From Aegilops tauschii subsp. strangulata (lineage: Eukaryota; Streptophyta; Magnoliopsida; Poales; Poaceae): 64,000 bases of DNA. Location: NCBI RefSeq assembly GCF_002575655.3, contig NC_053041.3, positions 374,525,054-374,589,053 of the forward strand, read 5' to 3'. The notes under the pieces are model-generated. The model was not told the DNA's origin, did not search any database, and saw only the letters and a program-made list of their open reading frames with translations. The translations under genes were made by a program, and so were the position numbers. Of the stretch, positions 1 through 55,825 are shown piece by piece. Position 1 is the first letter of the stretch; each line of letters begins with the position of its first letter.

Positions 1-1
1 C

Positions 2-106
2 GAGGAAGAGGAGCAACAACAACTAGAGCTTGCCCATGTGCACACTCAAGAGCAGCAACATGCTCGCGTGCAAGATCATGCGCTTGACGGTGCTGTAGGC
101 GACTAA
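2..106 (+). pseudogene. C-terminal end of an unidentified E/Q-rich open frame
   Basis: Frame 2 is open from the window edge to a TAA at 104-106 and codes for an acidic, Gln-rich stretch. It lies in the same frame as the zinc-knuckle ORF that starts ten bases after the stop. The two may therefore be one protein split by a nonsense codon, or this may be the end of a separate reading frame. The left part is outside the window, so the family cannot be named. Confidence 0.35.
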
Positions 107-115
107 CATGACAAC

Positions 116-733
116 ATGACATCCTACCAGCAGCAGCAGGAAAGGGTAACTAAACCACCCATATTCTCAAACGCAAAGGGGAGGAAGAGTAAGATGCAAG
201 CAGCGAAAGCAGCAGCCAAAAAGCCGCCACGCCCCATCATACGCGTGGAATTTGGCCCAGACGGCAAACCTCTCGGGATAAGGGCATGCGGATTCTGCAA
301 CGTGGTGACCAATCATAATTACCGCACATGCCCACTCCGCACAGATGCCATTGTAAACAAGCAAAAGCCGCAGAAGCAAATTGGAGCCTCCCAGGTTTCT
401 ACCAATGGAGATGACACATGTAACAACTACACTTGCAGCAAGTGTGGGGGGACTGACGGACATAATGCCCGCACGTGCAAAGTGGGAAAGGAGGTCAGTG
501 GCGCTGAACAGAAACAGGGCAAGGTCCAGAGTTCAAAGAAATCAAAAGAAGAGGATGAAGAAGAGTTTGACGAGAATGATGACCAATCAGACGAAGACAA
601 TGAAGATGACAGTATTGGGGACGAGGAAACTGAAACTGACGATGAAGCTGCCAAGGCTCAAGTAGGAAAGGACGCCGACAAGGGACAACATTCGGGGCCA
701 GTTAGAAGGAGCTCAAGACTGAAGAATCCATAG
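116..733 (+). CDS. Zinc-knuckle protein, FAR1/MULE-transposase-like C-terminal region
   Basis: A 205-residue ORF from an ATG at 116. A KGRK-type basic segment lies near residue 22. Two zinc knuckles follow: CGFCNVV..H..TC near residues 58-72 and CSKCGGTDGHNARTC near 107-121. Next come a Lys/Glu/Asp-rich acidic tail and a basic C-terminus containing RRSSRL. In plants the order KGR box, CxxCxxxGHNxxTC knuckle, acidic tail is typical of the C-termini of FAR1-related proteins and Mutator-like transposases, where the knuckle is thought to bind nucleic acid. No transposase or SWIM domain is visible in this ORF, so it is either the tail of a longer broken protein (an in-frame stop sits just upstream) or a stand-alone derivative. 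Assignment to FAR1 or MULE is inference; the knuckles are seen directly. Confidence 0.5.
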   Translation: MTSYQQQQERVTKPPIFSNAKGRKSKMQAAKAAAKKPPRPIIRVEFGPDGKPLGIRACGFCNVVTNHNYRTCPLRTDAIVNKQKPQKQIGASQVSTNGDDTCNNYTCSKCGGTDGHNARTCKVGKEVSGAEQKQGKVQSSKKSKEEDEEEFDENDDQSDEDNEDDSIGDEETETDDEAAKAQVGKDADKGQHSGPVRRSSRLKNP

Positions 734-1437
734 TTAGGCTGCCGTGTCAACTGAAAAATAAGCTTGTACTGTTGGTTGCCTCGGTACACAATGAGGAATC
801 ATATCAGAAACGCTGTCGTTACAAGAACTTATTTAGCTTTATTATCGATTCCTCGATCAGTACTATAGTTAAGATATAATTTGTGATTTTGTGCCTGCTA
901 GACCAATGACATTATTATGTAAACCATTTGATAAACCTTTTGAATGCAATCACAAATATATTTTAAAAAACTGATCTAGATTTATGTAACGTCAACACTA
1001 CTGTCGACCAGTAACTCAGCAAAAAAATGTTAAGGAAAATTTAAACTCTTATAGTACATCAGTACTGATAATTCTCACTCGTCAGTACAAGGAAGAGTAA
1101 CCAAACACACCCGTGAACAACTCAAAAAACATCATTTCAAAACAAGCTATGACTGGTTCTGCCAGTCCTAGTTGAGAAAGTCCATCAGTACATAAAAATA
1201 ATTACCTCAAGCAAACAGAAAAAATTGAAAGTGCAAATATAATACACCTGTACTGATGAAAAACTAATTTATCTTTAAATATACTTTCAAAGATTATTTT
1301 GATATAAACAATCCTTTCAAAAAACAAAATTTGTTTTAAAAAGATTAGCATGACACACATAGTCTCAACTTGTATTTGGTAAGTTCAATTACACTTCAAT
1401 CACCAGTCCAAGTACCCACAGTAGAGGAGTACAAAGC
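734..1437. other. AT-rich stretch without a recognisable gene
   Basis: AT-rich sequence rich in short A and T runs. I see no ORF of note, no terminal repeats and no RNA gene. It separates the zinc-knuckle ORF from the tandem duplication. Confidence 0.5.
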
Positions 1438-1599
1438 GCCATCATCACCAACCCTGACACGCGCAAGTGGGATAAGCAGCTGATAAGTACAACTTGACAA
1501 GACGGCTCAGTGCGACAGTAAAATGCCATCATCACCAACCCTGAGACGTGCAAGTGGGATAAGCAACTGATAAGTACATCTTGACAAGACTACTTAGTG
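1438..1599 (+). repeat. 87-bp direct duplication
   Basis: The block beginning GCCATCATCACC at 1438 is repeated at 1525 with a few mismatches (both contain AAGTGGGATAAGCA). One related block stands at about 5030, in front of the second exonuclease copy. The extra copy here is thus a local duplication in the 5' flank of the first copy. Confidence 0.75.
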
Positions 1600-1889
1600 T
1601 GACTAGTAAATACCCTGGCAAAGATTTTGGCTTGGATGGTTGATTCTTCCAGGCCAGCGCCCGCGCCACCCGCTGGGCGGTTGCCACGACGGACTGCAAC
1701 TGCACCCCACGACCACTACACCCACGTCCCCGACGAACCGCCTCCCACACATCCCTGTCCACGCACTGGAAATAACCCATTGTCTTCCATCTCTGCCTCA
1801 TTCACAGAACCACCATTGCCGCTTCCATCTCCACTACAAACAACCCAGAAACTTCTCTCTTCCAAGCCCACAGTCATCGGAGGAGGGAA

Positions 1890-3318
1890 ATGGCTGAGGA
1901 ACCGTCTGCCAAGCGTCATCATGGCGAGACGTCCGACCAGAGCAGCAACCTCGACGACGTTCACGTCCCCAGCGAGAAGCGTGAGTACACCCAAACCCTC
2001 ACAGGGGTTGACCTCCACGGCAAGGAGACGCTGGAGTTTGTCTGCACCAGCGAACCAGACAAGGCCGACGAGATGATCACCAGGCTCTGGAAGAAGGGTG
2101 GCGGCTTGTATCCTAGGTTCGTCGGTGTTGATGTAGAGTACACCAGGGAAGACGAACCTCCGCAGAGAGCAGCTGTTCTGTAGTTGTGCGTGGAGGAACT
2201 CTGCCTGGTATACCACATCGCAGCGGCCACAAAATGGTGAACCATCCTACTCATTTGCCCTATTTGGTTCATCTGTTTAATTAGTACTGTATCCTGAAAA
2301 ATTAATCAAACTTGTTTCCCAACTAGATGTACTAGTGTAGTTTGTGAAAGTGGATGCACTACTGCACTTTCTCAAGTAGATGCACTATAATATTTTTTTT
2401 GAACCTGATGAACTGGATTACTATTTGAAAATCTTGCAGAAGATTAATTAATTTATGAAGTTGATGTACTAGTGTAGTTTCTGATCTTGATCTAATAGTG
2501 TAGTTTCTGCACTCGATGTATTAAAAAGATGTTTCTCAACATGATGTAGTGAAGTAATTTCTGAACTTGGTCTGGTGTTATTTTCATAAGCAAACAAACT
2601 AAGAACTTGGTGAAGCACTGGTATGTGTTGTTCTATTCAACAAAAGTAAACTAAACTAGTACTAAAGCAGCACACACATCATTGACTCAAAGTGTATATA
2701 TTCCAAAAAGAAAAATAACATGGTGTACTTGAATTTAATTTCAGAACTTTGTTTACTAGTTTCTGAAGTACACTCATCGATCCATTAATTATACTATATA
2801 AACATCTACTTCATGGATTCATCGCTTGTAAAACAAAAAAAATGAAGAATTCAAACATCAAAATAATACTAATCTTCAAAATGTCTCTCCCCTTGCAGGC
2901 CCAAGCGCCTCAACGACATGCTGAAGCATGAGAAGTTGTTCACATTTGTCGGTTTCAACATTGAAGGTGACAAAGAGAAGCTGAAGGTGTCTAGTTTGGA
3001 GATCAACCCAACAAGTACATCAACATTCAACGCAACTGGAGAGTTCCATACAACGAAAAAGAGTACGACTCCTTGGCTGATGTTGCAGCCAGCACCATCC
3101 ACCCATTCTACAAAGACATGAAGAAGAAGGTCAACAGGAAGGAAGACCATAAACTGTGGGGGATCAGCCCGCTGCCAAATTACCTCATCGAGTACGCAGC
3201 AATAGATGCGTACGCCACCAACAAGTCATGGAAGATAATTGACAACATCACAACAGGTTGGGAAATTTCAAAAGAGCAGGAGGCTGACCCCTACTACCAC
3301 TGCCACTATGCGGGATGA
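1890..3318 (+). pseudogene. WRN-like 3'-5' exonuclease domain gene, broken copy 1
   Basis: Two exons: 1890-2236 and 2899-3318, with a GT-AG intron and a Trp codon split across the junction. Exon 1 starts MAEEPSAK and carries the Exo I motif GVDVEYT (Asp-x-Glu). Exon 2 carries an Exo II-like GFNIEGDKEKL and an Exo III-like YAAIDAY (Tyr-x3-Asp), the DEDDy pattern of WRN/EXD-type exonucleases, which remove nucleotides from 3' ends. The copy is broken: an in-frame TAG at 2181-2183 interrupts exon 1, and the frame shifts between about 3010 and 3075 in exon 2. A close relative lies 3.5 kb downstream and an intact relative at 34616. Family assignment is confident at domain level; whether the gene ever worked on DNA or RNA is unknown. 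Confidence 0.75.
2237..2898 (+). other. Intron with degenerate short repeats
   Basis: The intron starts GTGAAC and ends TTGCAG. It contains loosely repeated stretches built on GATGTACTAGTGTAGTTTCT (about 2324, 2462, 2490), and the equivalent intron at 5698-6379 keeps the same pattern. No other element is seen. Confidence 0.6.
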
Positions 3319-3763
3319 AGATACATCAAAGTCTGCCTTCGTGTTGCTTGCGCTTGTGCTTGCCTTTTATCTTGTTGTTTCAAATTCGTAGTTTGCTCTT
3401 GTTAGGTTAAACCAGTTTGCTTATGTCTTGTGTGTCAGGGTTGAACTAGTGTGCTTATGTCGTGCTTACTACAATAAAAAGTACAAAGAAGCATAAGTTC
3501 GCAGTCCCTCAAAAAAATGTCAGACTAAGCACATAAGTGCTACTATGAATGAACTCTCAGTACAACTTAGTTTACACGCAAGTACTATAGTGGTAAAATG
3601 ATACCAGAAGACCCTTGAGAATAATCACAAAAACAAACACAAAAAGAAGGCAAAAACTCAATGAAAAGATAACACTTCCACAAAACTCACAAGAACTACA
3701 ACAAAAAGTATCAGTCCACATTACTGGTGGAGTCATGTACTAGGTTCAAACCAAAAAAAATAA
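3319..3763. other. 3' flank of exonuclease copy 1
   Basis: Contains a TTGCTTGCGCTTGTGCTTG stretch that is also present after copy 2 (about 6829), so it belongs to the duplicated unit and probably held the 3' UTR. The rest is A-rich with no gene. Confidence 0.5.
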
Positions 3764-3947
3764 AAATTGACCGCCCGAAGACAGGCAGGCCCTGACACAG
3801 CTAGGTACTTGAACTCGAACCCACGACAGAACCGTTGGCGAATCCCTAGTAATCGGCACAACACAGGGCCAGCCGACCAGGGCCCACAGGTCATGAGAAA
3901 GAGTGAGCGCCGTGTATAAGCACTCAGGTAAGTATTCAGAGGAGTTC
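3764..3947 (-). ncRNA. Candidate Pol III small RNA, unit A (about 184 nt, family unknown)
   Basis: Reading the - strand, an snRNA-type promoter predicts a start about 30 nt after the first T of the TATA box, at G3947, giving a 5' end GAACTCCTCTG. The predicted RNA runs to the T-rich block at 3766-3753 (T5, A, T8), a standard Pol III stop. It can form a hairpin GAGTGC/GCGCTC with loop TTATACACG, and a second stem GGGCC/GGCCC. It does not match U6, U3, 7SL or the telomerase RNA template as I know them. A TTCGAG element resembling a B-box core also occurs inside. The unit B copy shares start, length and both stems. No coding potential is visible. Expression is inferred, not shown. Confidence 0.55.
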
Positions 3948-3967
3948 AGCCAGTAGGACTCGGCAAC

Positions 3968-4086
3968 GCTTATAAACAGGTCGAGAGCCCCCTCCCTTAG
4001 CGAGGTGGGGCTAAACCCAGAGCACACGCACATCCAGCCGTCCTCAAATCGCCCGCGCGGGCCATTTGGGCCAGAAAAGGGCCCAA
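3968..4086 (-). promoter_or_regulatory. Monocot Pol III snRNA-type promoter, unit A
   Basis: On the - strand, in order: two RGCCCR elements (GGCCCA, GGCCCG) at about 4059-4076, a USE core CCCACCTCG at 4001-4009, a 23-nt spacer, then TTTATAAGC at 3976-3968. In plants a USE-TATA gap of about 23-26 bp marks Pol III rather than Pol II snRNA promoters, and RGCCCR boxes upstream of the USE are the monocot-specific elements. The first USE base is C here where unit B has T. Confidence 0.7.
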
Positions 4087-4380
4087 TAGCCTCCATCATC
4101 TCCAAACAACCCACCAATAAGGCCAATTGAATAAAGCAGAGCACGGGGCAAAGAAATATAAAAAATGTTCAAAAACTGAAAATAGAAAAGTTCAAATACT
4201 TGTTCGTAGGCAATAATTTTAAATACAAAAATAAAAATAATTTTAGCTCTGCACCACAGATGATAAAAAAGGAAAATTTTTGATACAAAAACAACGAAAC
4301 TTTAAAAAGCGGAGAACTTAATAGGCTGTATGTTAAATGTACATAATTTAAACCAGCGAATTAAATATTACTTTCAAGTT
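4087..4380. other. AT-rich spacer
   Basis: A/T-rich sequence with runs of AAAATAAAAA type. No gene or structured repeat seen. Confidence 0.4.
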
Positions 4381-4629
4381 CAACTACTAAAATGCAATAA
4401 GTTCAAATAGATATTGTTTGTCAATTCAGCTAAATTTCTTATTTATATAAAATCTAACTAGTTCAACTACTGAAATGCAATAAGTTCAAATAGATATTGT
4501 TTGTCAATTCTGCTAAATTTCTTATTTATATAAAATCTGACTAGTTCAACTACTAAAATGCAAGAAGTTCAAATAGATAGTGTTTGTCAATTCTGCTAAA
4601 TTTCTTATTTATATAAAATCTGACTAGAG
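4381..4629 (+). repeat. Three tandem copies of an 83-bp unit
   Basis: Units start at 4381, 4464 and 4547, each opening CAACTACT(A/G)AAATGCAA and ending near AAATCT(A/G)ACTAG. They are nearly identical. The equivalent place in unit B (about 8577) holds a single, more diverged copy, so the triplication followed the large duplication. Confidence 0.9.
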
Positions 4630-5026
4630 CTCAACCAATGATTTCGTCGTAAATAATCTCAATCCCAAAAAAAGCTCAGTTCAAACGTACATATGACATC
4701 AGTACTACAAAACAAAGAAGGGTCAAGCCACTCACACCACTGGGACACCAATTTTCAAAACCTTACGCTGTATGAAATTACAATTCAATACACACAACAC
4801 TAAACCATAAGTACACTAAAAAGAGAGTACAAAAACTATAAAGGCCTAACTTAGGTTGGGACAGATGAAAATAAAATAAGTCCCAGTTTTGAGCAACCAC
4901 TTGCAGTGCACTATATTTATTTTTTTGAGATCAACTAGTGTATAAGACTTCAGTGCAAAAAGGAGACTTAACCTCCAAACTGAAAACATCACAAAGTATA
5001 TGTCACTTAAACAGTACAAAATGCCA
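4630..5026. other. Spacer at the junction of the two duplication units
   Basis: Low-complexity, A-rich sequence. The block near 4850 (ACTTAGGTTGGGACAG) recurs at about 8902, marking the right part of the duplicated unit. No gene found. Confidence 0.45.
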
Positions 5027-5364
5027 TCATCACTGACCCTAAGACGTGCAAGTGGGATAAGCGGCTGATAAGTACAGCGTGACAAGACTACTCAGTGCGA
5101 CAAGTAAAAAACACTTAGCTTGGACGGTTGGTTCTTCCAGGCCACCACCCGCGCCACCCACTGCCACGACGGACTGCAACGGCGACCCCACAACCACTAC
5201 CCTCACGACCGGGAAGAACCGCCTCCCCCACGTCCCAAACCACGCCCTCAAAAAGCCCCAAATCAACTCCATCCCTGCCACATCTCCAAAAACCACGATT
5301 GCCGCTTCCATCTCCACTACAAACAACCCACAAACATCTCTCTTCCGAGCCCACAGTCGCTGGA

Positions 5365-6802
5365 GGAGGCCAAGCGTCATCATGGCGAGACGCTCGACAA
5401 GAGCAGCAACCTCGACGATGTTCGCGTCCCTGGCGAGAAGCGCGAGTACACCAAAACCCTCACAGGGGTTGAGCTCCACGGCAAGGAGACGCTGGAGATC
5501 GTCTGCACCAGCAAACCATACAAGGCCGACGAGATGATGAGCAGGCTCAGGATGAAGGGCGGCGGCTTGTATCCTAGCTTCATCGGAGTTGATGTGGAGT
5601 TTACCAGAAAAGATGAACCTCCCCAGATGCCAGCAGTCCTACCGTTATGCGTGGAGGAACTCTGCTTGGTGTACCACATCGCAGCAGCCACAAAATGGTG
5701 ATCCATACTACTCTTAATTCATCTGTTCTACTAGTACCATTCCCTAAAAATTTCATTAAACTTGTTTCCCAACTAGATGAACTATTGTAGTTTGTGAAAG
5801 TGGATGCACGAGTACATGTTTCTCAAGTAGATGCACTATAATATATTTTGAAACTGATGCACTGGATTAGCATCTGAAATTGTTTCACCACATTAATTTC
5901 TGAACTTGATGTACTAGCATAGTTTCAGATCTTAATGCACTAGTGTAGTTTATAGATTTGATGTATTAAAAGATGTTTCTAAACTTGATGTACAAAAGTA
6001 GTTTCTGAACCTGGTTTGATGTTATTTTCAGCAGCAAAAAATAAAGTAAAAACTTGGTGAAGCACTGGTATAGGTCTTTTATTCAACAAAAAGAAAACTA
6101 AACTTGAAGTAAGCAGCACATAGATCATTGACTCTGGTTATAGGTTCTTGAACTTGGTGAAGCATTTGGTGAAGAACTGAAGATACCCAAAAAAGAAAAT
6201 AACAAGGTGTACTTGAATTTAATTTCAGAACTTTGTGTACTAATTTGTGAACTACATTCATCCATTACTTATACTATATAAGCATCTACCTCATGGATTA
6301 TCACTTGTAAACCAAAAAACAGAAGAATTAAATCTTCAAAAAAGAACACTAATCATCAATATGTGTCTCCCCCTTACAGGCCTAAGCGCCTCAAAGAGTT
6401 CCGGCAGGAGCAGAAATTGTACACATTTACCCGTTTCAGCATTGAAGGTGACAAAAGGATGTTGAACAAGTCTTGTTTGGAGATCAACCCCAAGAACTTC
6501 ACCGACATTCAGCGACTCTAGAGAGTTCCAGGCACCGGAAAAGAGTACGACTGCTTGGCCGATGTTGCTGCCATCGTCATCCACCCATTCCACAAAAGCA
6601 TGAAGAAGAAGAAGATCGATAGCGAGGAAAACCACAAACTGTAGGGGATCAGCCCGCTGCCAGACAAGCTCATTGAGTACGCAGTAATAGATGCATACGC
6701 CATGTACAAGTCACGGAAGATAATCGACAACATCGTAATAGGTTGGGAAATTTGAAACAGCAGGAGGCTGACCCCTACTACCACTGCTACTACGCGGGAT
6801 GA
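5365..6802 (+). pseudogene. WRN-like 3'-5' exonuclease domain gene, broken copy 2
   Basis: Exon 1 reads from about 5365 to 5697 and exon 2 from 6380 to about 6802, with splice sites matching copy 1. Exon 1 lacks the start codon present in copy 1: the bases before CAAGCGTCATC differ and no ATG fits. It is otherwise open through the Exo I motif GVDVEFT and the VYHIAAATKW end. Exon 2 carries in-frame stops at about 6519 (CTC-TAG), about 6643 (CTG-TAG) and about 6753 (ATT-TGA), while the Exo III-like Tyr-x3-Asp remnant reads YAVIDAY. Copy 1 and copy 2 have different lesions, so they decayed independently after duplication. Confidence 0.75.
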
Positions 6803-7901
6803 AGAGACATGAAAGTCTGCCTTCGTGTTGCTTGCGCTTGTGCTTGTCCTTTATCTTTTTGTTTCAAATTTGTAGTTTGCTTTTGTTAGGTTGAACCAGC
6901 TTGCTTATGTCATGTGTGTCAGGGTTTGAACAAGTTTTCTTATGTCATCAAGTACATCGTTCGCTTATGTCGTTCAACAAGTTTGCTAGCTTCCTATTTT
7001 GCTTATCCATCATTTGAAGTTGAAGTAGGTAGTGAATGAAACATGATGGCTACTATGCATCACTAGTCATGGAGCAACAAATCACACATGGATATTTTCA
7101 CAAAAACAGTGGCAGACTAAGGACAATAGCAAATAGTAGCCTTGGATGCTCAGTACAGCTTAGTCCTGTACGGTAGTACTATCACACTAAAAAAATCAGT
7201 TTTTAGTTTCAGAAGAACACTAAAAAGGCTAAGTTGCAGCCAAGGACAACATTCAGTACTAACAGCATCATGCTAATAGTAGTTAGAAAATTACTAAGTA
7301 CTGCAACAGGAAAAGCCAAGAACCATCAGTACGTATTTCATAGTCACTAGCATACTAGGAGTGAAAGTACTGGTACACTTCAACACACAGTACATCCATT
7401 CTACAAAAATAAAAAGGAATGGGAAGCTTCAGTTCGAATTCCCTAAAACAGTGACACACTAAGAATAACAGTGCTAGTACAATTGAAATCTCAGTACAAC
7501 TTATTTTATACCACATGTACTATGATGATACCAATTAATGCCTTGAGAATAACCACAACCTATGAAAAATAAGGCCAAAACTAAATCAAAAGGATATCCG
7601 TTCGACCAAGGAGAAAAATCACAAGAAAGACAATAGAAGCATCAGTCCACATTGACAAGTGAGGTACTAGTTTCAAACAACACAAAAATAAAATGATCAC
7701 AGTGCTAGTAGAATTCAAATCTCAGTACAACTTAGTTTATACGGTAGGTACTATGATGATACCAATTAATGCCTTGAAAAAGAAGGCCAAGACTCAACCA
7801 AATAGATTACATTTCAACCAAAGACAAAAATTCACAAGAACAAACAACATAAGCATCAGCCCAGATTAACCAGTGAGGTACTAGTTTCAAACAACAACAA
7901 A
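6803..7901. other. Unit B intergenic region with an internal duplication
   Basis: A-rich. Two related blocks of about 80 bp (7471-7555 and 7703-7784) share CAGTACAACTTA and GATGATACCAATTAATGCC. A single related block near 3555-3600 follows copy 1. No gene seen. Confidence 0.55.
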
Positions 7902-8089
7902 AAATGATGACGGGCCAAGGACAGGCTAGCCACGCATAGGAGGTTAAACTTGGACTCGAGCCCACGGTGGAACCATTGGCGAATCCATAGTAATCGAGAC
8001 TGTGCGGGCCAGCCGTCAAGGGCCCACATGTCATGGAACAGAGAGCGAGCGCCATGTATAAGCGCTCAGGTCAATATACAGAGGAGTTC
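7902..8089 (-). ncRNA. Candidate Pol III small RNA, unit B (about 188 nt, family unknown)
   Basis: Counterpart of the unit A element. The predicted start is G8089 (5' end GAACTCCTCTG) and the T6 stop is at 7904-7899. The first hairpin is GAGCGC/GCGCTC with loop TTATACATG; relative to unit A a U-G pair is replaced by C-G, which keeps the stem. The second stem, GTGGGCC/GGCCCGC, is longer than in unit A. The sequence between the stems has changed more than the stems, as expected if structure were kept, though two sequences are too few to prove it. I do not recognise the RNA. Confidence 0.55.
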
Positions 8090-8109
8090 GACAGGCAAGG
8101 CACGACAAT

Positions 8110-8228
8110 GCTTATAAACCGGTTGAGAGCCCCCTCGTCTAGCGAGGTGGGACTAAACTCAGAGCGCACGCACATCAAGCAGTCCACAGTTGCGCGCACC
8201 GGCCATTTGGGCCAGAAAAGGGGCCAAT
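8110..8228 (-). promoter_or_regulatory. Monocot Pol III snRNA-type promoter, unit B
   Basis: On the - strand: a GGCCCA element within 8199-8228, the USE TCCCACCTCGC at 8152-8142, exactly 23 nt, then TTTATAAGC at 8118-8110. This matches the arrangement I recall for wheat U6 and U3 promoters, including the bases just upstream of the USE (AGTTTAG). It is the better preserved of the two. Confidence 0.75.
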
Positions 8229-9255
8229 ACGACTGCTACTCACTCCTCTCCAAACTCTCCTCACCCCACCTCATAAGGCCCGCTGAATAAACCAGAGAGT
8301 GTGGCAAAGAAAATATAAACAAGTACAAAAAAGTTCGAAAACTGAATATAGAAACGTTCAAATACATGTATGTTCGCAGGAAAAATAATTCTAAATTGAA
8401 ATATAAAAATAAAATAAATTTACGTCTTCAGCACAGATAAAAGGATTAAAAATATGCTACAAAAACAATGATACTTTGAAGTTCAACTGTATATGCTACA
8501 AAAATAATCATGAACTTAATAGGGTTATCGGTTAAATGTAGCTTATTTAAACCAATGCTTTAACTTTTACTATGAAGTTCAACTACTAAAATGCAAGAAG
8601 TTCGAACAAATATTTGGCTCTCAATTTTGCTAAATTTCTTACATTTAAATAAAATATGGCTAGAGATCACGTAGCAATTTCGTCATAAATAATTTCAATA
8701 CCAAAAAAACTTCTATTCTAATACATTATATGACATCAGTTCTACCTAACAAGGAAGCGTCACTCCACTCACGCTAGATCCACAAATACTATTGTGACAC
8801 CAAATTTTAGAAGCCTTGCGCTGAATGAAATTACAATTCAGTACTCACAGAACTATACCATAAGTACAAGAAAAGAGGGTACATAAACTATAAAGGGGTC
8901 CAACTTAGGTTGGGACAGATGAAAATAAAATAAATCTCACTTTTTCAGCAACAACTCGTAATGCACTTGAAAAAAGTGTTTCAGTTCAACTAGTGTATAA
9001 GACTTCAGTGCAAAAATAAAACTTAACCAAAACGAATTCCCGATAAAACATACACTAGTGAAACAGCTGTTCAACCACATTATCATCATGGAAAAAAGTT
9101 TGTAAAATGTTGTGCCACACTTAAAAACATCACAAAGTATACCGGTTATTACATAGTTGACAAGACATCCAAACACTACAAACAAAGCCTACAATGCTTT
9201 CAAGACATCAATCACACAAGTATCCCATTCACTATGCAAATGATAACCATTTCTT
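8229..9255. other. AT-rich right part of unit B
   Basis: Holds one diverged copy of the 83-bp repeat (about 8577) and the ACTTAGGTTGGGACAG block (about 8902). Homology to unit A stops near 9145. The last 100 bp lead into the 3' end of the protease pseudogene on the - strand. Confidence 0.5.
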
Positions 9256-10930
9256 CTATGCACTAGGAGCCAAAGCCCGAACCTCCTCGGGAAGCTCCAC
9301 CACCATAACCTGGTTATTCCGGTTGAACACAACTGTATACATATCCTCAGCGTTCCAATCAACAATAAGCGGTTCCAAAACAATAAAACAAATTATCAAA
9401 AATCATGACACATAGAAAAAGAATAGACAATCAGCCAAACACAGAAATTGAAAGCTGAACTAGAACCCACGCCATTATTTCGAATGTTCTCAATGATCTT
9501 TTCACCATCATAGGTTCCTGCATACTTCAGAGTATAATGGCCACATTCATTCGACCCTTGAAGTGGAACCTTGACAAACATTGGTTTCTTTGCAAAAAAC
9601 CTCCCATTTGGGTTGCTTGCTCGCATTATACTGAACATCACCATACACAACCTTCATTACTTGGACCAATCTAGAGATTGTAAAAAAACAAAAGAAACCA
9701 CACATTTTTATGTCTCAGAAAAGCAGAAACAAAGAGGCGGAAAAATTAATCTAGTACAGATAAATGTCACTCACAATCTTCTCGCAGTCTTTGTGATAGG
9801 TGTTCTTTGAAGGATGATGGTTCTTCCCATAAGGTAAAGGGTCAAGGATGTCAACGGTACTTCGGTACCGATTCATGACATATAAGGAAAAGTGGTTCAC
9901 TTTCAAATCCTTTGATAAAACCATAGGTTTGAATAGAGGCATCATGATTTAAAACAAATTACCAGAAAAGAGATATTAAATATTAAAAATAAAAACCAGC
10001 ATCACAGCAAACAAATAAAACCAAAAATCAGCTAGTAGATCTCACAAGGTCGGCACTGAGCAAGTCTTCCCCATCTTTAACATAGCTCGTGAAATCTCTC
10101 GCTGCACTCTCACACTAAACTCTTTACCTTCATCACCGTAAAACGTACAGTCAAGCACAGTCTGCGAAAAGCCAAAAAGAAATAGATAGGGGAAAAGGAT
10201 CGACAAGGAAAGTATTTTTAAAACACGTAAAACAATAGGCAGTCTTGTTTCACATAAACAAACGATCTAATTCATTACCGTGATGAAATATGGACTCAAC
10301 AAGATCCTTTTTCTAGATGCGAAATCAGCATTTCTCTCGGGATCTCGCTTCCAATCATCAATGAGGAAGTCCATTACATCACCCTCCATCATCTGTGCAG
10401 GTGCAAAAACTTCTCAGATGCGTTTCCCAGTGAAGGTAGTTACGTTATCATCGGGCTGAGGTATCATTGATAACGCAGTCATGCAGCACACACAAGAACA
10501 AAAAGCAGGGGAAGCAAGATAAGGCATTCATAGCAGTTCAAGTTGTATAAAAAAGAGGAGTTCAGGTCATATTTATCTAGCAGTTAGAAACAGCAGAAGA
10601 AAAGAAGAGGAAACATAATGAGAGATACTCACTGGACATACTTCTCACGTCCTTCATCACTAAGAAACAGATTATACAACTTGCGAGCCTTGTCCAGGTG
10701 AAGGAATTTATGAGGGTGAAGCTGCTGCATAGGGGAACAAAACTTTATAGGAGCTCTCGGTGCATGCTTCGTGCTTGTAACATCGCCAGACTTCAAAGCA
10801 GGATCCTTCCTAGCAACACCAGCTCTATGGCCCACTATTCCAGCAAGGGGAGATACACCCTTGGCAGCAGCGCTCCTGGTGACTCTTCCCATGCCAGCGA
10901 TCTTATCAAACGCATCATCATCACTGTCTA
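9256..10930 (-). pseudogene. Ulp1/C48-type cysteine protease gene, truncated and frameshifted
   Basis: Exon-like blocks on the - strand: 10930-10633, 10455-10279, 10161-10046, about 9949-9775, 9670-9471, and a last one ending at a TAG at 9258-9256 (LPEEVRALAPSA end). The catalytic layout of Ulp1/SENP proteases is readable: His in HFSLYVMN (about 9885), Asp in DILDPLPY, and Gln...Cys in PLQGSNECGHY (about 9560). Such proteases cleave SUMO-type conjugates, and transposons also carry them in plants. Breaks: an in-frame TGA near 10415, a lost base at the 10633 donor, and a frame change near 9590. The first block is open through DSDDDAFDKIAG right up to the CACTA end at 10931, so upstream exons are cut off. 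It could be a host gene or transposon-carried. Confidence 0.65.
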
Positions 10931-11504
10931 CACTACAAAAAAAGACACATCCGTGACATTTTGGGCCGAACGAAATTTTTTTCTATCATACATATGACAC
11001 TTCTATGACGATAATTGTGACAAAACCCGGTTTCATCATAGATGTGGTGGGCTCCTACTTCTATGACAAAAAATCATGACAGAAAATGGGCTTTTCGTCC
11101 TGGGCGGGCCGGAGACGCGGCTGCATGACATTCTTTGGGCCGTCCATGACGGAAAAAACCATGGTAGAAGCGAGGGGTAGGAAAATTTCGGGGAGTTCCC
11201 GGTTACAGTGGGAGGTCGGGGGCCGAGCGATGCGCGTTTCTCTCATACATGTATGCACGTGTGCGCGAGGCGTTGGCTCTAACTGAACCCGAGCGAAGCG
11301 TTGGGCTCTAACTGAACCCGAGCGATTGCACTGCAGGCTACGCGTTACTGAACCCGAGCGATCGATCGATGGCTGTTAACTGAACCGGATCGAGCGATTC
11401 CTTCGCTACTGCTGCTAACTGAAGCCGATTGATTGGATGAACAGTGAGCATTGCGGGGGGGGGGGGGGTGGATGAACAGTGAGCGGTGGCGTTGCCTCTG
11501 GATG

Positions 11505-21490: not shown

Positions 21491-24400
21491 TGTAACGACC
21501 CGACCCGAAATCGGTCAAGTCTCTGTGTAGCTGTACCATCCCAAGATCATGCTGGCACACATAGTACATTGATGCAAAGATTCAAAGTTCAATCACACCT
21601 GCATTTATTACACGATTCTCATATCGAGTCTTTATTACAAGATAATAAATTCGGCCGAAGGCCAACTCACGAGAAATAAACTAAATAAAGCTGCGGAAGC
21701 GTAGATGAATAGCGAGTCCATCAGACTCCATAGGGCAATCGCCAAGCGTGGATCGTAGCCTCACTCCTGATCGGAAAACTCCTCTGCAACATAAGACGTT
21801 GTAGTCGTGTAGGTCAGCATTTTGAATATGCCGGCAAGTCATGAAGAGAGAACAACAATAAAATTACTAATACTATATGCAATTTGGCTGTGGGGCTCTA
21901 AGTTTCATTGTTTTGCGAAAAAGCCAGTAATTCCCTACAACAAGGACTAGTTTGCAATTACTACAAAATGTTGGTAGTTATTGAGATGGTTCCGCCAACC
22001 AATGTCTCATTCCCAATTATTAAATAACCCCCTCAATTAATTTATTAAGTTCAGTGTTGAGATATCTGAAATACTCCAATCCCAGAGGCTCATTTGTCCG
22101 TAACCGGGGACACGGCTAATCGATTAGGTTGTTACTCTGCAGAGGTTTGTGCACTTTACCCGCAAGAATCTTTCCCTCCTTTAAGTCTTCGCATTGCCTG
22201 GTGTTTGAAGACGGGACGAACGAAACAGGGTCTTCCATAGAGTTTCTCTGGGCCACTGCCGGTGCCCATCCAATCCTACCGTTCTTCTACATCTCGTAGC
22301 ACCGTCCAGCCAGAGTCACGCCTAGGGTCGACCAAGCCAGAGCCCATAATGGCTTGCCGCTGCACAGGTAAGCTTCCGGTCAATGGGGTATCCATCCGTC
22401 TCTTCGTGGCTGGGTGAAGCTTTCCGCAAGATGTCATGGCGCTTCTCCATGCATCCCGGCCATCCGCTGGTTTCTCCAGGGTGCCCGTCAACCGTCCTCC
22501 ACCCAGTAGTGAATTTTGAAGTCCATCTTGAGCTTGATGTCATGGGGTTTTCATCATCTTGACTCTCGCATCTCCCTTATGAATCACTCAACCAACCCCG
22601 TCTACGAGCATAGCAAAATAAACTACATCGTCCCGGGCATCGGTAACAAGGGAGAAGGGTTCATCCTACCTCATGATAATACTCAAGAACATAACTTAAC
22701 AAAATTCTCCTACTGCATGCATGGTGGGGAGGTATAACTCTAATACAATAAAATCATTGGTATTGTAAAAACGTGATCAAATGACTTGCCTGGCTGGCGG
22801 TCTTCGAAAGCTAGCGACTCGTAATAGCAGGCTTTGCACTCCAGAAATTCTACCGAGGCAAACAATAGCACAAATAAGTATAGCACAATATAACATAACA
22901 GCAAGTTGAAGTAAAACACCCAAGCACTCAAACCAAAACCAAAGAAAAACTCGGAGAAAGCAAATCAAGGTTTTCATCATATCAAGCAACAACTAAGAAA
23001 TAGTTTTACACAACTAAAACTTTTCTTAACAGAACCTAAGCATTGGTTTTGCTAACTAACAGAAGAGAAAACATCATACAAACTAGTAGCAAAAAGAATC
23101 ACATCAAAAGCTATTATAGAACTCCTATTATGCCTAAAACAATCCTAGCAAAAAAAATAAAATAAAAAAATTTATTCTACCATAAATAAAAGTTCATCCG
23201 CTGTAGCTACAGAAACTAATCCAAAATAAACTATAACATAATAAAAATAAAATTATTTACTAACTAGAACAGTAGGAAGACAGTAACTAGCTAAATAAAC
23301 AAGAAAAACTTGATTTCCACATAAAACTAATTGTTTATTAAATCTAAAATACCCAAACAAGTTCCTACTGCTAGACATGGTCAAAACTAAGCAGTAGCAA
23401 AAAGAATCACTAAAAAATAATGCTAACTCAATTTATGGCAGAAAAACTAAACTGTCTAAATCTAATATAAAACTATTTCTAATAATTTAAACCTGGCTCA
23501 ACATATTTTCTGCAGAAACTACAACAAATTTTCAAACTAACAAAAAAAGAATCAACTAAAAATAATAAATAACCTAAAAGATATAGATTTTACAAGATTG
23601 GAACTTTTCTGTTTTTAAAACAGAACGTAAATAACAGAAGAAAAAAAACTAATGGGCGCTATTGGGCTCGGGGTGGTGGGATCTGAAACTAAACCGCGCC
23701 CGGTCGGAAATTAACAAAACCTGTGCGGCTAATAACTAAACCGACCGATTCGATCTAATCAAATAAACCGTAAACTAAACCGGAGAAAAAAACCGAACTA
23801 CTAAAAATAAACCTAACCCTTCGCTACGATCTAATCTACGGCGTACATGCGAGATCTAACGGTGGCGGGGAGCTCGAGCTTACAGCGGACGGCGGCGACA
23901 GACGAAGACGACGGTGGTGACTCGGGCGATGGCGGTGCAGCGGCTCCGGTCGTCGGGGAGGAAGGAGATGGCGTCGGGGCGATGCGGCGGAGCTTGGGGA
24001 AGTCGGGGGCGGCCTTGGTGGAGCTCGGGGACGGCGAAGACGATCGGGATGACGGAGACAGCGCCCTGGTGAGCTGCAACTCCGGCGAGGGAGAACGAGC
24101 TCGGGGACAATCCTGTGATGGGAGAAGGAGGTCGAAACCATGTCAAAATGATGCGCAACATCGGGGGAAGCTCATAGGTGGAAGAGGAAGTCGTGTTGTT
24201 GCTCACCGGCGGTGGAGGCAGCGATGAACTGAGGCGGCTGCGGCGAGATCCAAAGGAGGAGGGCGTGAGCTGTGGTGGGAGTTGAGGTAGGGTTTTTGGG
24301 GGGTTCGGAAGAGGAAGGGCTTGGCCTTTTATAGGGCGTAGTCTTGGGTGAGGGGGCGTCTTGGGATCGTGATCCCATGGAACTCGGACGCGGCGGCGGC

Positions 24401-25034
24401 GGCGAACGCGCTCTGGCGCGGTGTCGTGGGCGAGGGGTTGGGGATGAGGGCAGGCCCGGGGTGTCAACGAGAGAGAGAGGGGAAAGGCGCGACGGGCGAC
24501 CGAGGGGGAGAGGAAATTGGGCCTCGGGCGCTGGGCGGCGGCGGCTCGGGCGCTGGCGGGCAGGCGCCTGCCCCGCTGGCTGGGCCGGTTGGCCTGGCTG
24601 ACGCCTAGGGCTTTGCCTCTTTTTTTTTGAATAGAGAGAAGAGAAAACAAATAAAAATATTTTTTTATATAGGACATATATATCAAAATTCTCAGGGGAA
24701 TTAATCCTACAACGTGGACATTTTTCTAGGGGCAAAACTCAAACTAAAAAAACAATTTCTGGAAATCCCAAATAAAATTCAAATTTGAATTCAAACTTTT
24801 TGGCAATACTTTTCTTCTGACATTTTTGGAGTGTCATGTTAGCTCCTCTCATACTTTTGATCAAGTATTTGTCAGGGATATTTGAAATAAATTTCAATGC
24901 CAAATCAAGTTCAAATTCACAACAAAAACTCAACTGCCTCTGAAATTTTCAAATGCCACTCAATTTCAATCAAAATGCATAGATGCTTAGCTATAATTGT
25001 AAAACATTCCAAATGGGAAATTTGGGGTGTTACA
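21491..25034 (-). repeat. Gypsy 1, 3' LTR (3544 bp)
   Basis: Matches 30557-34122 end to end with scattered substitutions and small indels. The GC-rich ORFs near 23830-24690 recur in the other LTR, so they are LTR sequence rather than host genes. Confidence 0.95.
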
Positions 25035-25046
25035 AACCTACCCAGC

Positions 25047-28000
25047 TTAAGATGAATCTCGCCCTCGAGATTCGGGTTGACTAGCCAATAGGTGCGGGTG
25101 GTCTCGGCGGAGGTCTTCTTCTCGCTCCGAGGTGGCTTCCTCCTCGGAATGATGACTCCAGAGAACCTTGCAAAACTTGATGATCTTGTTGCGGGTGACT
25201 CTGTTCGCAGTCTCGAGAATTCCGACGGGTTTCTCCTCATAAGTCAGATCACTGTCGAGTTGTATGGCCTCTAGGGGCACTGTGTCTCTCAACGGAATTT
25301 CGGCCATCTCAGCATGGCATTTCTTCAGCTGAGAAACATGGAAGACATCGTGAACTCCGGACAATCCTTCCGGCAATTCCAGTTTGTAAGCAACTGCTCC
25401 ACGACGTTCGAGGATTTTGTAGGGGCCAAAGAACCTGGGTGCCAACTTTCCTTTAACACCAAACCTCTTGATTCCACGAAGTGGGGACACACGGAGATAT
25501 GCTCGGTCTCCAACTTCATACGTTATCTCCTTGCGTTTGCTGTCGGCATAACTCTTCTGTCTCGACTGGGCTATCTTGAGTCTATCTCGAATCAGCTTGA
25601 CCTTCTCTTCGGAGGCTCTGATAAGATCGGGACCAAAAAGTTTTCGGTCTCCAACACCATCCCACAGCAATGGTGTTCTACACCTCCTTCCGTATAGAGC
25701 TTCGAAAGGGGCCATCTTCAGACTGGTCTGATAGCTGTTGTTGTACAAGAACTCTGCATATGGCAAATTATCATCCCAGCTAGACCCATAGTCTAGCACA
25801 CACGCTCTCAACATGTCCTCCAGAATCTGGTTGACTCTCTCGGTTTGTCCGTCTGTCTGCGGACGAAAAGTTGTACTGAATTCCAGCCTCGTACCCAAAG
25901 TTTCATGCAACTGATTCCAAAACTTTGAGGTAAATTGTGTTCCTCTATCTGACACGATACTCCTCGGAACTCCATGCAGACATACGATCCTGGTCATGTA
26001 TATCTTGGCTAACTTAGCGCTGGTATAGGTGGTCTTCACGGGAATGAAATGAGCTACCTTGGTCAAGCGATCAACCACTACCCAGATGGAATCATAACCT
26101 GAACGTGTCCTGGGTAATCCTGTGATAAAATCCATTCCAAGTTTCTCCCATTTCCACTCGGGAATCGGCAAAGGTTGAAGTAACCCTGCTGGCTTCTGAT
26201 GTTCCGCCTTTACTCGCTGGCAAACATTGCATACTGCTACGTACTCGGCAATATCCTTCTTCATACCTGTCCACCAGAAACTTTCCTTTAAATCCAGATA
26301 CATCTTGGTGTTGCCTGGGTGAATCGAGTACGGTGAATCATGGGCCTCCTGAAGAATTAACTTCCTGACCTCTGGGTCATTAGGCACATAGATGCGATCC
26401 TCAAACCATAAAGTTCCGTGCTCATCTTCACGAAAACCTTCAGCCTTCCCGTTACTTATCTTTTCCTTTATCTCTGCAATTCCCTTGTCTATCTTCTGGG
26501 CTTCATGGATTCTTTCGGTCAGAGTGGACTGTATATCCAAGGTGGCGACAAATCCTCTCGGTACTATCTCCAGTCGGAGCTCTCTGAGATTGTCGGCTAA
26601 TTCCTGAGGTAATCCTCCAGCTATGAGGGTGTTCACATAACTTTTACGGCTCAAGGCATCTGCTACAACATTTGCCTTCCCTGGGTGATAATGCAATCTC
26701 ATGTCATAGTCCTTGATCAATTCAAGCCATCTCCTCTGCCTGAGGTTCAATTCCTTCTGCGTGAAAATATACTTCAGGCTCTTATGATCCGTGTAAACAT
26801 CACAACTTTTTCCGACAAGGAAATGTCTCCAGGTCTTGAGTGCGTGCACTACGGCTGCTAACTCCAAATCGTGTGTGGCATAATTCATCTCGTGAGGTCG
26901 TAGCTGTCTGAAGGTATAAGCTACAACTTTTCCTTCCTGCATGAGCACTCCTCCGAGTCCTTGACGAGAAGCATCACAATATACCTGGTAATCCTTGTGT
27001 ATGTCTGGCAAAATTAGCACCGGGGCGGTAACCAAAAGTTTCTTCAGCTCCTGAAAACTGTCTTCACAATCCTCGGTCCAAATGTACTTGGCTTCCTTCT
27101 TCAACAGCTCAGTCATGGGCTTGGCAATCTTGGAGAAATTCTCAATAAACCTCCAATAATATCCTGCGAGCTCGAGAAAACTGCGGATCTCCTTGACTGA
27201 GGTGGGGGACTGCCAGTTGGTGACCGATTCGACCTTGGTGGGGTCGACTGCTATTCCTTCTCCTGAAATAACATGTCCGAGGAATCCGACTTCCTTCAGC
27301 CAAAATTCACATTTGCTGAACTTGGCATATAACTGATGTTCTCGGAGTTTCTCCAGAACTAGACGCAGATGTTCCTTATGCTCTTCCTTGCTCTTGGAGA
27401 AAACCAATATGTCATCGATGAACACCACGACAAACTTGTCTAGATATTCCATAAATACCTTGTTCATTATGCTCATGAAATACGCAGGGGCATTAGTCAA
27501 TCCGAATGACATTACGATATACTCATATAAACCATACCTGGTGGTGAAAGCTGTTTTGGGTATATCCTTTTCACGAATCTTTAGCTGATGATACCCTGAT
27601 CGAAGATCGATCTTGGAGAATACCTTGGCTCCAACTAGTTGATCAAATAAATCGTTAATCATCGGCAGAGGGTACTTGTTCTTGATGGTCACATCGTTCA
27701 ATGAACGATAATCCACAACCATTCTCAGGGTTCCATCCTTCTTCTCTACCAAAAGAACTGGGGCTCCCCAAGGTGACGAGCTTGGGCGAATATATCCTTT
27801 CTCCAATAGCTCCTTAATTTGCTTCTTGATCTGTTCCAAATCATTCGGGGGCATCCGATAGGGTCTCTTGGATATTGGGGCTGTGCTGGGCAATAACTCA
27901 ATCAAAAACTCAATGTCTCTTTCCAGTGGCATTCCTGGTAATTCCTCTGGAAACACATAGGAAAAATCTTGCACTACGGGCACTTCCTCCTGAACAAGTC

Positions 28001-29114
28001 CCGTGAGGGAATTCACCCGATTCTTCATCGGTGTGCGTCTGGATACATACTTGATCCTCTTCTGCTCTGGGGTCGTGAGCAAAATCGTCTTGCGGGCACA
28101 GTCGATGTTGCCTTCAAACTTGGTCAACCAATCCATGCCTAGAATTACATCCAAACTCTGGGATTCCAATACTATGAGGTCTGCGGGAAAATCATGGTTT
28201 CCGATGCTGAGGGTCGAATGACAGCCTAAGCCTGCCGTCATCTCTCCTCCTGGGGAGGTGACCTGAAGCGGGGTTCTAAGGGTTCTAGTGGGCAACCCGT
28301 ACTTTTCCAGAACTACCCTTGATATGAATGAATGCGTTGCACCGGAATCAAAGAGTACCAATACTGGATGTGAATTTAATAAAAACATTCCAACCACAGT
28401 GTCTGGCTGATCATAGACGTCCTCCACGTCAAGGTGATTCACTTGAGCACGCGGAAAAGGGTTGGGCTTCTTTGCTGAGCTTCCATTGCCGTTGCCGTTT
28501 CCATTCCTCTGCTTGGCCTCCGGACAATCAGTGGCATAGTGTCCTGTCTTCTGGCACTTGAAACAGGTGATATGACTCAGATCCTTCTGAGCCGGAGCAG
28601 GACGGTGCTGGTTGCCATTGCCTCCATTGCCTGACTTGGAGTTGTTGTCGTGGTTGCGATTGTTCCCATTCCCTCCATGGTTATGTCCTCCATGATTATG
28701 TCCTCCATGGGTGTGATGGGTATGTCCTCCCGAGTATGGGGTATAGCGGGGCTTCTGCTGAGCTCCGGAGTTGTACTTTCCCTGGCCATATTTCCGCTTG
28801 CGGCTATCAATCTGCTGCTGCTTGCCTTCAAGTATGGTGGCCTTGTCTACCAGCTCCTGGTAGTTGTTGAAGGTAGCCACCATTAGCTGCATTCCTAGCT
28901 CATCATTGAGTCCCTCGAGAAACTTCTCTTGCTTTGCGGCATCTGTGGCCACATCATCTGGGGCATAGCGAGATAATTTGCTAAACTCATCCACGTACTG
29001 CCCCACAGTACGGTTCCCCTGGGGTAAGTTGCGGAACTCACGCTTCTTCAGACTCATGGCGCCAGCTGAGACATGAGCGGTGCGGAAGGCCTGCTGGAAC
29101 TCAGCCCATCTCAC
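25047..29114 (-). pseudogene. Gypsy 1 gag (3' part)-pol polyprotein
   Basis: A 1355-codon open frame reading into gag without its own ATG (the first codon is GTG within gag). Approximate residues: zinc knuckle [14 protein letters not shown] 184-197, protease DSGATHS 256-262, reverse transcriptase 440-690 with FIDD 565-568, RNase H 710-815 (DAS, then DLELAA and TDH), and integrase 925-1130 with HHCC and the Asp-Asp-Glu triad at about 995, 1056 and 1092. A chromodomain-like segment lies near 1285-1335. All catalytic motifs are present. Two positions usually conserved in relatives are altered: FLELAGYYW after the RT palm, and EEATSERE in the chromodomain, where Trp is normal. The upstream gag part is broken, so translation of this frame as it stands is unlikely. 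Confidence 0.9.
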
Positions 29115-33500: not shown

Positions 33501-34122
33501 GGCGAGGGGTTGGGGGATGAGGGTGGGCCCGGGGCGTCAGCGAGAGAGAGGGGAAAGGCGCGACGGGCGACCGAAGGGGAGAGGAAATTGGGCGCGGGGC
33601 GCTGGGCTGCGGCGGCTCGGGCGCTGGCGGGCTGGCGCCTGCCCCGCGGGCTGGGTCGGTTGGCGCTGGCTGGGCCGGTTGGCCTGGCTGGCGCCTCGGG
33701 CTTTGCCTCTTTTTTTTGAATTAGAGAGAAGAGAAAACAAAGAAAAATATTTTTTTATATAGGACACATATATATCAAAATTCTTAGGGGAATTAATCCT
33801 ACAACGTGGACATTTTTCCAGGGGCAAAACTCAAACTAATTTTTTTCTGGAAATCCCAAATAAAATTCAAATTTGAATTCAAACTTTTTGGCAATACTTT
33901 TCTTCTGACATTTTTGGAGTGTCATGTTAGCTCCTCTCATTCTTTTGATCAAGTATTTGTCAGGGATATTTGAAATAAATTTCAATGCCAAATCAAGTTC
34001 AAATTCACAACAAAAACTCAACTGGCTCTGAAATTTTCAAATGTCACTCAATTTCAATCAAAATGCATAGATGCTTAGCTGTAATTGTAAAACATTCCAA
34101 ATGGGAAATTTGGGATGTTACA
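30557..34122 (-). repeat. Gypsy 1, 5' LTR (3566 bp)
   Basis: Begins TGTAACGACCCGACCC on the + strand and ends GGGATGTTACA, flanked on the right by the TSD TGGGG. It is the transcription-start LTR, so its transcript would run away from the exonuclease gene to its right. Confidence 0.95.
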
Positions 34123-55814: not shown

Positions 55815-55825
55815 GGGGGATAGGA
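55813..55825 (+). other. Gypsy 2 polypurine tract
   Basis: AAGGGGGATAGGA directly before the 3' LTR, overlapping the pol stop codon region. Confidence 0.85.

Follow-up and report, generated by a model that had tools for sequence, protein, structure and literature searches.

Two related blocks on the minus strand of the 64-kb window (the whole stretch of DNA that was analysed) probably belonged, as gene cassettes, to a large Mutator-like transposon of the FAR1/Jittery type. Each was likely a template for RNA polymerase III (Pol III), as plant U6 and U3 genes are, and the resulting small RNA of ~180-186 nt would serve the element. We put the probability of this reading at roughly 0.7. Judging from the sequence, the dispersed element encoded a FAR1-MULE transposase, exonuclease-like genes, and an Ulp1-like protease, and a cassette lay antisense to, and adjoined, each exonuclease-like gene. 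The predicted promoter signals, the 5' end, one hairpin, and the 3' end of the putative RNA were kept between strongly diverged elements. What a preliminary description of the same DNA had observed was confirmed, and its interpretation of the blocks as two paralogous Pol III genes was partly supported.

Promoters and predicted RNAs of the two copies

The pattern CCCACMTCG N22-26 TTTATAA had two matches in the 64-kb window, both on the minus strand (3970-4009 and 8112-8151), an outcome obtained in 0/100 dinucleotide shuffles of the window (mean 0.00). The pattern scan placed the upstream sequence element (USE) of copy 1, TCCCACCTCG, at 8143..8152 and its TATA box, TTTATAAGC, at 8110..8118, while copy 2 had the USE CCCCACCTCG, differing from that of copy 1 by a single base, at 4001..4010 and the TATA box TTTATAAGC at 3968..3976. 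The gap between CCCACCTCG and TTTATAA was 24 nt in both copies, and the value of exactly 23 nt in the preliminary description had to be corrected. Its 5' ends, in contrast, were accurate: 8089 and 3947 lay 29 nt past the first T of TTTATAA, and both predicted RNAs began with GAACTCCTCTG. Upstream of the USE, both copies had one reverse RGCCCR box, accompanied by a single forward box in copy 1 and by two in copy 2. T-runs began at 7904 in copy 1 (T6, 7899..7904) and at 3766 in copy 2 (T5 at 3762..3766, then T8), that is at about +186 and +182, close to the 185 nt given before. The full set of Pol III-like elements that had been claimed for the minus strand of both units was therefore found. For copy 1 (type A), the RNA was predicted to start with the G at 8089 and to end on the T that opens the T6 run (7904..8089, minus strand); for copy 2 (type B), it would run from the G at 3947 as far as the initial T of the putative terminator (3766..3947, minus strand). 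Both RNAs contained a predicted hairpin 1 on the same strand, at 8046..8068 in copy 1 (GAGCGC, a 9-nt loop, GCGCTC, and one flanking pair) and at 3904..3926 in copy 2.

Both copies conformed to the anatomy and spacing rules of monocot Pol III promoters (USE to TATA box ~23-25 nt) set out in PMC11961915 and PMC6181210, which also gave the monocot USE consensus as TCCCACCTCG / TCCCACATCG; the barley U3 USE quoted in PMC6181210 was identical to the USE of copy 1. Monocot U6 and U3 genes shared with the cassettes the USE TCCCACCTCG, a TATA box ~24-25 bp away, RGCCCR boxes (MSP), and the T-run, but the cassette RNA matched neither of them in Rfam and the cassette was a multi-copy part of a transposon. 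The USE and the TATA box would recruit the host snRNA-type Pol III machinery, and transcription would begin at GAACTCCTCTG and end at the T-run.

As had been proposed, the RNA was unrecognised, in that it matched no family in Rfam. There were 0 Rfam matches at the gathering threshold in the whole 64-kb window, and no covariance-model score for U6, U3, U1, 7SL, MRP, or the other Rfam families exceeded that threshold. When positions 3500-8400 and each RNA singly were searched at E up to 10, only chance matches appeared, none of them near threshold. Two cassette patterns had no match in the viral contigs that were scanned. The Arabidopsis AtR8, a Pol III-transcribed lncRNA of ~260 nt (PMC7151572), was comparable as a plant RNA outside the classical families, but it is a host gene conserved in Brassicaceae.

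That the blocks were a SINE, or a different Pol III retroposon driven by an internal promoter, was extremely improbable. Near +150 the RNAs contained the B-box-like motif GGGTTCGAGTTC / GGGCTCGAGTCC; it was the only internal promoter box seen, the A box having been sought by eye. On the other hand, the external promoter accompanied the RNA in all types, the homology extended into flanking transposon sequence, and ARAGORN reported no tRNA in the window.

The transposon that carried the cassettes

Mutator-like elements contain transposases, Ulp1-like proteases, and captured pieces of host genes as known cargo. The dispersed repeat that enclosed the copy pair exceeded 15 kb and had a FAR1/MULE transposase, exonuclease-like genes, and an Ulp1-like gene. 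Its part in the window spanned 1..10930; homology to other loci ended at 10930 here and extended further in others. At 116..733 on the plus strand, alignment with another copy of the repeat (locus G) identified the C-terminal zinc-knuckle part of a Mutator-like transposase. This segment alone had no match in Pfam, and in locus G the FAR1 and MULE domains were directly upstream of the part aligned with it. Sequence comparison delimited two duplication units on the plus strand, 1428..4973 and 5011..9028, each consisting of an exonuclease-like gene (plus strand, ~1515-3461 and ~5011-6946, respectively) followed by an antisense cassette.

Locus G encoded FAR1 (1.3e-14), MULE (2.3e-18), and Peptidase_C48 (2.8e-5) domains, and its ORF homologous to the exonuclease-like genes matched PF01612 at 5.8e-4, short of the curated cut-off. 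Both transposase domains were thus present in this locus, and a second, diverged transposon (the type F element) had a MULE domain at 8.3e-18 and an exonuclease domain at 6.3e-8. The copies of the transposon stood in differing flanks, as expected of a dispersed Mutator-like element. There were 40 scored matches among 1260 first-look candidates for copy 1 and 40 among 488 for copy 2, and the dispersed cassette matches were frequently paired ~4 kb apart, like the pair in the window. No inverted repeat above chance was found between the compared flanks, which stop short of the element ends, and neither a TIR nor a 9-bp target-site duplication was found.

The closest known systems were Jittery-like and ULP1-carrying elements (KAONASHI type), which, like the present transposon, combine a FAR1-type MULE transposase with a reverse-oriented Ulp1-like gene (PMC2528002). 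The element described here differed from them in its exonuclease-like genes with interleaved antisense Pol III cassettes, neither of which was mentioned in the passages of that paper that were consulted. Barley Abermu is also a Triticeae Mutator-like family of unusual structure (PMC9168764), but the text of that paper made no mention of exonuclease, Ulp1, FAR1, or polymerase III. In a literature search that lacked most subscription papers, no report of snRNA-type Pol III genes in a Mutator-like element was seen among the papers listed.

Conservation of the cassettes

We collected 69 cassettes and divided them into types A-F, among them 8 of type A, 21 of type B, and 20 of type F. The USE and the TATA box, with at most one mismatch each, were precisely 24 nt apart in 66/69, and a T-run of at least four beyond +150 was present in 67/69. 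The layout of a monocot Pol III type 3 gene, recognised in the preliminary description, thus held across the set, and so did the conserved promoter spacing, which it had named beforehand as a test. The USE and the TATA box were not both exact in 19/69 cassettes, so many copies must be dead. Among the consensus sequences of the six types, 38/38 signal columns were invariant versus 20/42 spacer columns (Fisher p 2e-8, with blocks delimited after the alignment had been inspected). Within types, the mismatch was 0.020 in the USE, 0.027 in the TATA box, and 0.023 at +1, compared with 0.048 and 0.071 in the spacers. Inside the RNA, hairpin 1 (19/21 columns) and TGACCTGTGGGCCC (14/14) were largely or fully invariant among the type consensi and the 3' GGTCA was conserved among types, while the middle was weakly conserved (24/103 columns). 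In a comparison of the two copies from the window, the RNA was no more conserved than its flanks.

The type F element had the same cassette layout, with three cassettes alternating with exonuclease-like genes, and was 50-59% alike in the two best transposase stretches. When it was compared with window positions 1-10930 by blastn, 10 pieces aligned, of which 6 were cassette-cassette matches and 4 were exons of the exonuclease-like genes. The DNA-level alignment of the two diverged transposons therefore comprised coding exons, the cassette, and almost nothing more. The invariant signals, the kept 24-nt spacing, and a cassette alignable between diverged transposons indicate that selection probably acts on the cassette. 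The preliminary description had listed membership in a transposon as an observation that would count against its interpretation. The block was indeed part of one, but the Pol III reading survived, since the promoter and the 5' end were the best-conserved non-coding parts of two diverged transposons.

The same comparison bore on the idea that a single capture event had brought in a Pol III gene of the host, carried since then as a functionless passenger. Capture of host gene fragments by Mutator-like elements is documented in PMC2528002, and the numerous mutated copies would fit such an origin. Nevertheless, the cassette DNA remained alignable between elements with only 50-59% likeness in the best transposase stretches. 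Hardly any of the remaining non-coding sequence did so, and we consider a passenger unlikely.

A rather doubtful alternative was that the cassette works as DNA. Pol III factors on the USE and the TATA box would then shield the exonuclease-like genes as a chromatin boundary or spacer, and the RNA would be a by-product. This view would agree with the promoter and the 5' end being the most conserved blocks, with the drifting middle of the RNA, and with a second, far more abundant repeat that had the promoter and the 5' end of the cassettes and an unrelated RNA body. However, hairpin 1, TGACCTGTGGGCCC, and the 3' GGTCA were also conserved deep in the transcribed part, and a promoter-only role needs none of them.

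Two further explanations concerned the motif ATACTTACCTG, present in 27/69 cassettes. It was the exact complement of a strong splice donor, and the conserved feature might be this plus-strand donor, CAG/GTAAGTAT, antisense to copy 2 and belonging to the first exon of a plus-strand gene. The donor complement was missing in 8/8 cassettes of type A and 20/20 of type F, where the minus-strand USE, TATA box, and +1 were kept; such a function is highly improbable, and as one shared by the cassettes it was ruled out. A U1 mimic was considered because of an Rfam U1 match of 8.1 bits: ATACTTACCTG equalled the 5' end of U1 snRNA (11/11 in type B), and the RNA would pair with 5' splice sites and compete with U1. 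With an E of 6.6, though, this score fell well short of the required 69.5 bits, and the motif was at +13 rather than at the 5' end. Its absence from types A and F led us to reject U1 mimicry as the function of the family, and overall we regard it as very unlikely.

RNA structure and a possible role in the transposon

The preliminary description had also argued that GAGTGC/GCGCTC in one copy against GAGCGC/GCGCTC in the other reflected a change that preserved pairing. The difference was real, but GAGTGC occurred in copy 2 of the window alone among the 69 cassettes, GAGCGC was found in 16/21 copies of type B, and the change was a one-sided wobble change. Across 49 copies, the covariation argument failed: no double-sided, compensatory change was found in any tested pair, and the covariation score (0.078) was not above the shuffled mean (0.082). 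The joint fold of these copies was weak (-5.6 kcal/mol, 17 pairs) with no common global fold, and the folding z-scores of types E and F were close to zero. The sides of a stem TGACC/GGTCA were kept in sequence in 64/69 and 59/69 copies, and this stem was uninformative for covariation because it was invariant between types. In a held-out test, a structured and a sequence-only model were trained on 20 copies of types B, C, and D, and both recovered all 20 type F copies (L071-L090) at full or near-full length. Relative to the score, the gain of the structured model in the held-out copies was about that of a training row.

According to our model of a Pol III-transcribed transposon RNA, the molecule would consist of a base-paired body and a small hairpin, its 5' end remaining free. 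In the stretches that were scanned, GAACTCCTCTG was confined to the cassettes, with two one-mismatch sites elsewhere, and therefore no partner site for the 5' end was found within the element. The RNA is predicted to act in trans and, together with the exonuclease-like protein of its own duplication unit, to form a ribonucleoprotein that protects the transposon, most probably because it would dampen RNA silencing or RNA processing in the host. The basis for this predicted partnership was the position of the two genes.

The second repeat family allows a more tentative proposal, which we regard as possible though doubtful, that DNA transposons of grasses maintain a Pol III RNA system of their own. 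It would include the giant Mutator-like family, in which each element has several snRNA-type genes and exonuclease-like genes paired with them, as well as the far more abundant repeat with the same promoter and 5' tag GAACUCCUCUG and another RNA body. Together with transposon proteins, their RNAs would work in trans to counter silencing by the host, which would amount to a ribonucleoprotein encoded by a eukaryotic transposon that has polymerase III genes of its own.

If the reading of the cassettes is true, complete snRNA-type Pol III genes under selection, several per DNA transposon, would represent a new class of transposon cargo. Two testable questions are thereby opened, namely whether a transposon RNA made by Pol III helps the element to evade or adjust its control by the host, and whether this RNA has the adjoining exonuclease-like protein as its partner. 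Moreover, the snRNA-type promoters would then be numerous in the genome, which bears on the annotation of Pol III genes and on the off-target use of U6/U3-type promoters.

Two cassettes in a tandem duplication

The minus strand of the window contained two sites at which a USE was followed by 24 nt and TTTATAA, and two such sites per sequence occurred in none of 100 shuffles. The preliminary description had put the USE-TATA gap at 23 nt, and both copies corrected this figure to 24 nt; the start, T-run and RGCCCR boxes were present at both sites as described. The predicted RNAs ran from a G at 8089 to 7904 (copy 1) and from a G at 3947 to 3766 (copy 2). Judged by this layout, the proposed Pol III type 3 gene plan held for both copies, and we infer that host Pol III would read each cassette from the G through to the T-run. 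The excerpted text of PMC6181210 described a barley U3 promoter with the USE TCCCACCTCG, a TATA box 25 bp away and five RGCCCR boxes, and that of PMC11961915 likewise gave USE, TATA and RGCCCR boxes for monocot U6 and U3 promoters. The suggestion of an unrecognised RNA agreed with Rfam, where the whole window had no match at thresholds and searches at E up to 10 (3500-8400 and each RNA) returned nothing approaching one.

Each copy lay in one unit of a tandemly duplicated segment (1428-4973 and 5011-9028), and each unit included an exonuclease-like gene. The two RNAs were 83, 78 and 62% identical over three 60-column blocks, which was not above the conservation of the flanks, and copy 1 folded far better than its shuffles (z -5.86), copy 2 to a lesser degree (z -1.68). 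The evidence from the window by itself was a weak case. A further tandem duplication (7465-7688 and 7696-7903, 78% identical) started at the copy 1 terminator.

Conservation and folding of 69 cassettes

The cassettes compared were the two of the window, seven others from the copy 1 search, the 20 next best of 40 from the copy 2 search, 20 picked across the copy 1, copy 2 and further searches, and 20 of 150 from a search with the metagenome protein P0023; 10 duplicate extractions had been removed beforehand (59 to 49). They fell into seven types (A 8, B 21, C 11, D 6, E 2, F 20, X 1), with copy 1 in type A and copy 2 in type B. USE and TATA were both exact and 24 nt apart in 50 of the 69, and each had at most one mismatch in 66, the exceptions (L030, L038 and L068) having two USE mismatches each. 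At least four T beyond +150 were present in 67/69 and an exact AACTCCTCTG in 58/69. ATACTTACCTG, at 3925-3935 (-) in the window, was the same as the U1 snRNA 5' end and the complement of a strong 5' splice site; it was found in 27/69 cassettes, none of them of types A or F.

Among the type A-F consensi, the USE (17 columns), TATA (10) and +1 (11) blocks were invariant in 38/38 columns, whereas the two spacers were invariant in 20/42 (Fisher p 2e-8, a guide only because block edges were drawn after the alignment had been seen and columns were not independent). Invariant columns also made up 19/21 of hairpin 1 (GAGCGC/GCGCTC in copy 1), 14/14 of TGACCTGTGGGCCC and 8/9 of the 3' GGTCA block, with 24/103 in the RNA middle and 10/34 in the upstream stretch. 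Within types, mismatch was lowest in USE (0.020), +1 (0.023) and TATA (0.027), highest in the linker (0.076) and second spacer (0.071), and unremarkable in the 3' block (0.051).

Hairpin 1 was likely in all types, with mean pair probabilities from 0.55 to 0.95. When types B, C, D and F were each folded on their own, all four showed hairpin 1 as well as a TGACC/GGTCA stem closing a long body; this stem was unused in the type A fold, and the type F consensus sequence folded differently. The joint fold of 49 copies was weak, and pair counting in them found no compensatory changes, so that the covariation claimed earlier was not sustained. Mean folding z-scores varied (A -3.15, F -0.88, E +0.56). 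We therefore limit the claim to a predicted RNA that forms a hairpin and probably has a base-paired body, and do not present a common fold as proven.

The dispersed element and its genes

The window occupies 374525054-374589053 of one contig of a 4.10-Gb assembly (692 contigs). Searches of this assembly gave 40 scored matches among 1260 first-look candidates for copy 1 (76-100% identical) and 40 among 488 for copy 2 (82-100%), the candidate numbers being first-look counts rather than copy numbers. Several matches were paired about 4 kb apart, as the window copies are. Long blocks, the longest about 89-94% identical, were common to the window's region and six other loci compared over at most 30 kb. 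Homology of the window copy to three loci ended at 10930, and other loci carried on beyond; CACTACAAAAAAA at 10931-10943 started exactly at this break and looked like a nested CACTA-type insertion. At locus G, another genomic copy of the element, the common stretch ran from about 11010 to past 27270 (>15 kb). The element ends were not found within the up to 30 kb compared. In the extension of a further locus, a type E cassette lay about 22 kb from a type A cassette on the same strand (L069, L070), so that a single element may have cassettes in two widely separated positions.

Stop-free pieces of locus G matched FAR1 (1.3e-14), MULE (2.3e-18) and Peptidase_C48 (2.8e-5), and also a 3'-5' exonuclease (5.8e-4, below the curated cut-off). 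The window ORF 116-733, which alone had no Pfam match, aligned to the C-terminal part of the locus G transposase. FAR1-related Jittery-like elements, and elements carrying a ULP gene in reverse orientation, were already known, according to the excerpted text of PMC2528002. The gene plan of the preliminary description stood, and what had gone unnoticed was the pair's membership in a dispersed element with a transposase.

Elsewhere in the window, another, longer exonuclease-like ORF (34382-35335 (+), 317 aa, PF01612 3.5e-5) lay outside the duplicated units. Long ORFs of gag-pol type, by eye from LTR retrotransposons, occupied 25047-29114 and 51227-55814; the direct repeats flanking them (21491-25034 / 30557-34122 and 45537-48782 / 55818-59064; 3.2-3.6 kb, 96-98% identical) were probably LTR pairs.

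A diverged transposon and an abundant repeat

The minus strand across the promoter and the predicted RNA was read as a stop-free frame, and a search of 5.8 billion proteins with it found eight; a profile of eight sequences found 28, of which P0026-P0028 had E values of 0.099 to 2.9. These proteins sit on short contigs from metagenome sources that are presumably plant DNA, and in their alignment the residues that the USE, the TATA box and the RNA start would specify were kept at constant spacing. P0025 joined a bacterial-looking N-terminus to a plant cassette and by eye was a chimeric contig.

P0023, of type F, gave 150 scored genome matches among 2620 first-look candidates. A stretch of 20 kb containing type F cassettes (L091, L092) encoded a MULE transposase (8.3e-18) and an exonuclease (6.3e-8), with a weak C48 match (0.022) below cut-off. 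Its transposase was 50.0% (160 aa) and 58.8% (131 aa) identical to that of the window's element in the best two stretches and less so in the rest. Three cassettes, at 6645, 10071 and 12814, lay on the strand opposite to interleaved exonuclease-like ORFs. With blastn (word 11), the type F element and window 1-10930 had 10 pieces in common, six cassette-cassette and four exonuclease-like exons; with locus G there were 11, namely six cassette, two exonuclease-like, two transposase and one unassigned piece of 50 nt adjoining the Ulp1-like region. By this tally, the cassette was the only clearly recognisable non-coding DNA between the elements, and its identity (71-79%) was about that of coding exons. 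This cross-element DNA match is our strongest evidence that the transposon carries the cassette as a functional component.

Searching the genome with P0028 gave at least 280 matches from 150 scored of 37029 candidates, again a first-look figure and no copy number, some of them near chromosome ends. Six short stretches from these matches (L093-L098, type H) had a USE (0-2 mismatches) 24 nt away from TTTATAAGC, and their predicted RNA began with either AAACTCCTCTG or GAACTCCTCTG, with a T-run about 141-143 nt past the start in five and none within the fetched piece of the sixth. Upstream they carried ACCGGGACCAATG, which we take to be reminiscent of subterminal repeats in grass CACTA elements. 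This far more abundant repeat had USE, 24-nt gap, TATA and 5' end in common with the cassettes, yet its RNA body of about 140 nt differed. Since the promoter was common to type H without the RNA body, a role of the cassette as boundary DNA, with the RNA a by-product, still stands as an alternative, albeit one that we consider improbable.

Under the reading that we prefer, the cassette RNA would act in trans with the exonuclease-like protein encoded in the same duplication unit, a prediction whose sole basis is the interleaving of cassette and exonuclease gene in both elements. Our comparisons showed that a predicted gene plan of Pol III type 3 is conserved and belongs to a transposon, and it is the place of the pair inside a transposon that makes the finding interesting.
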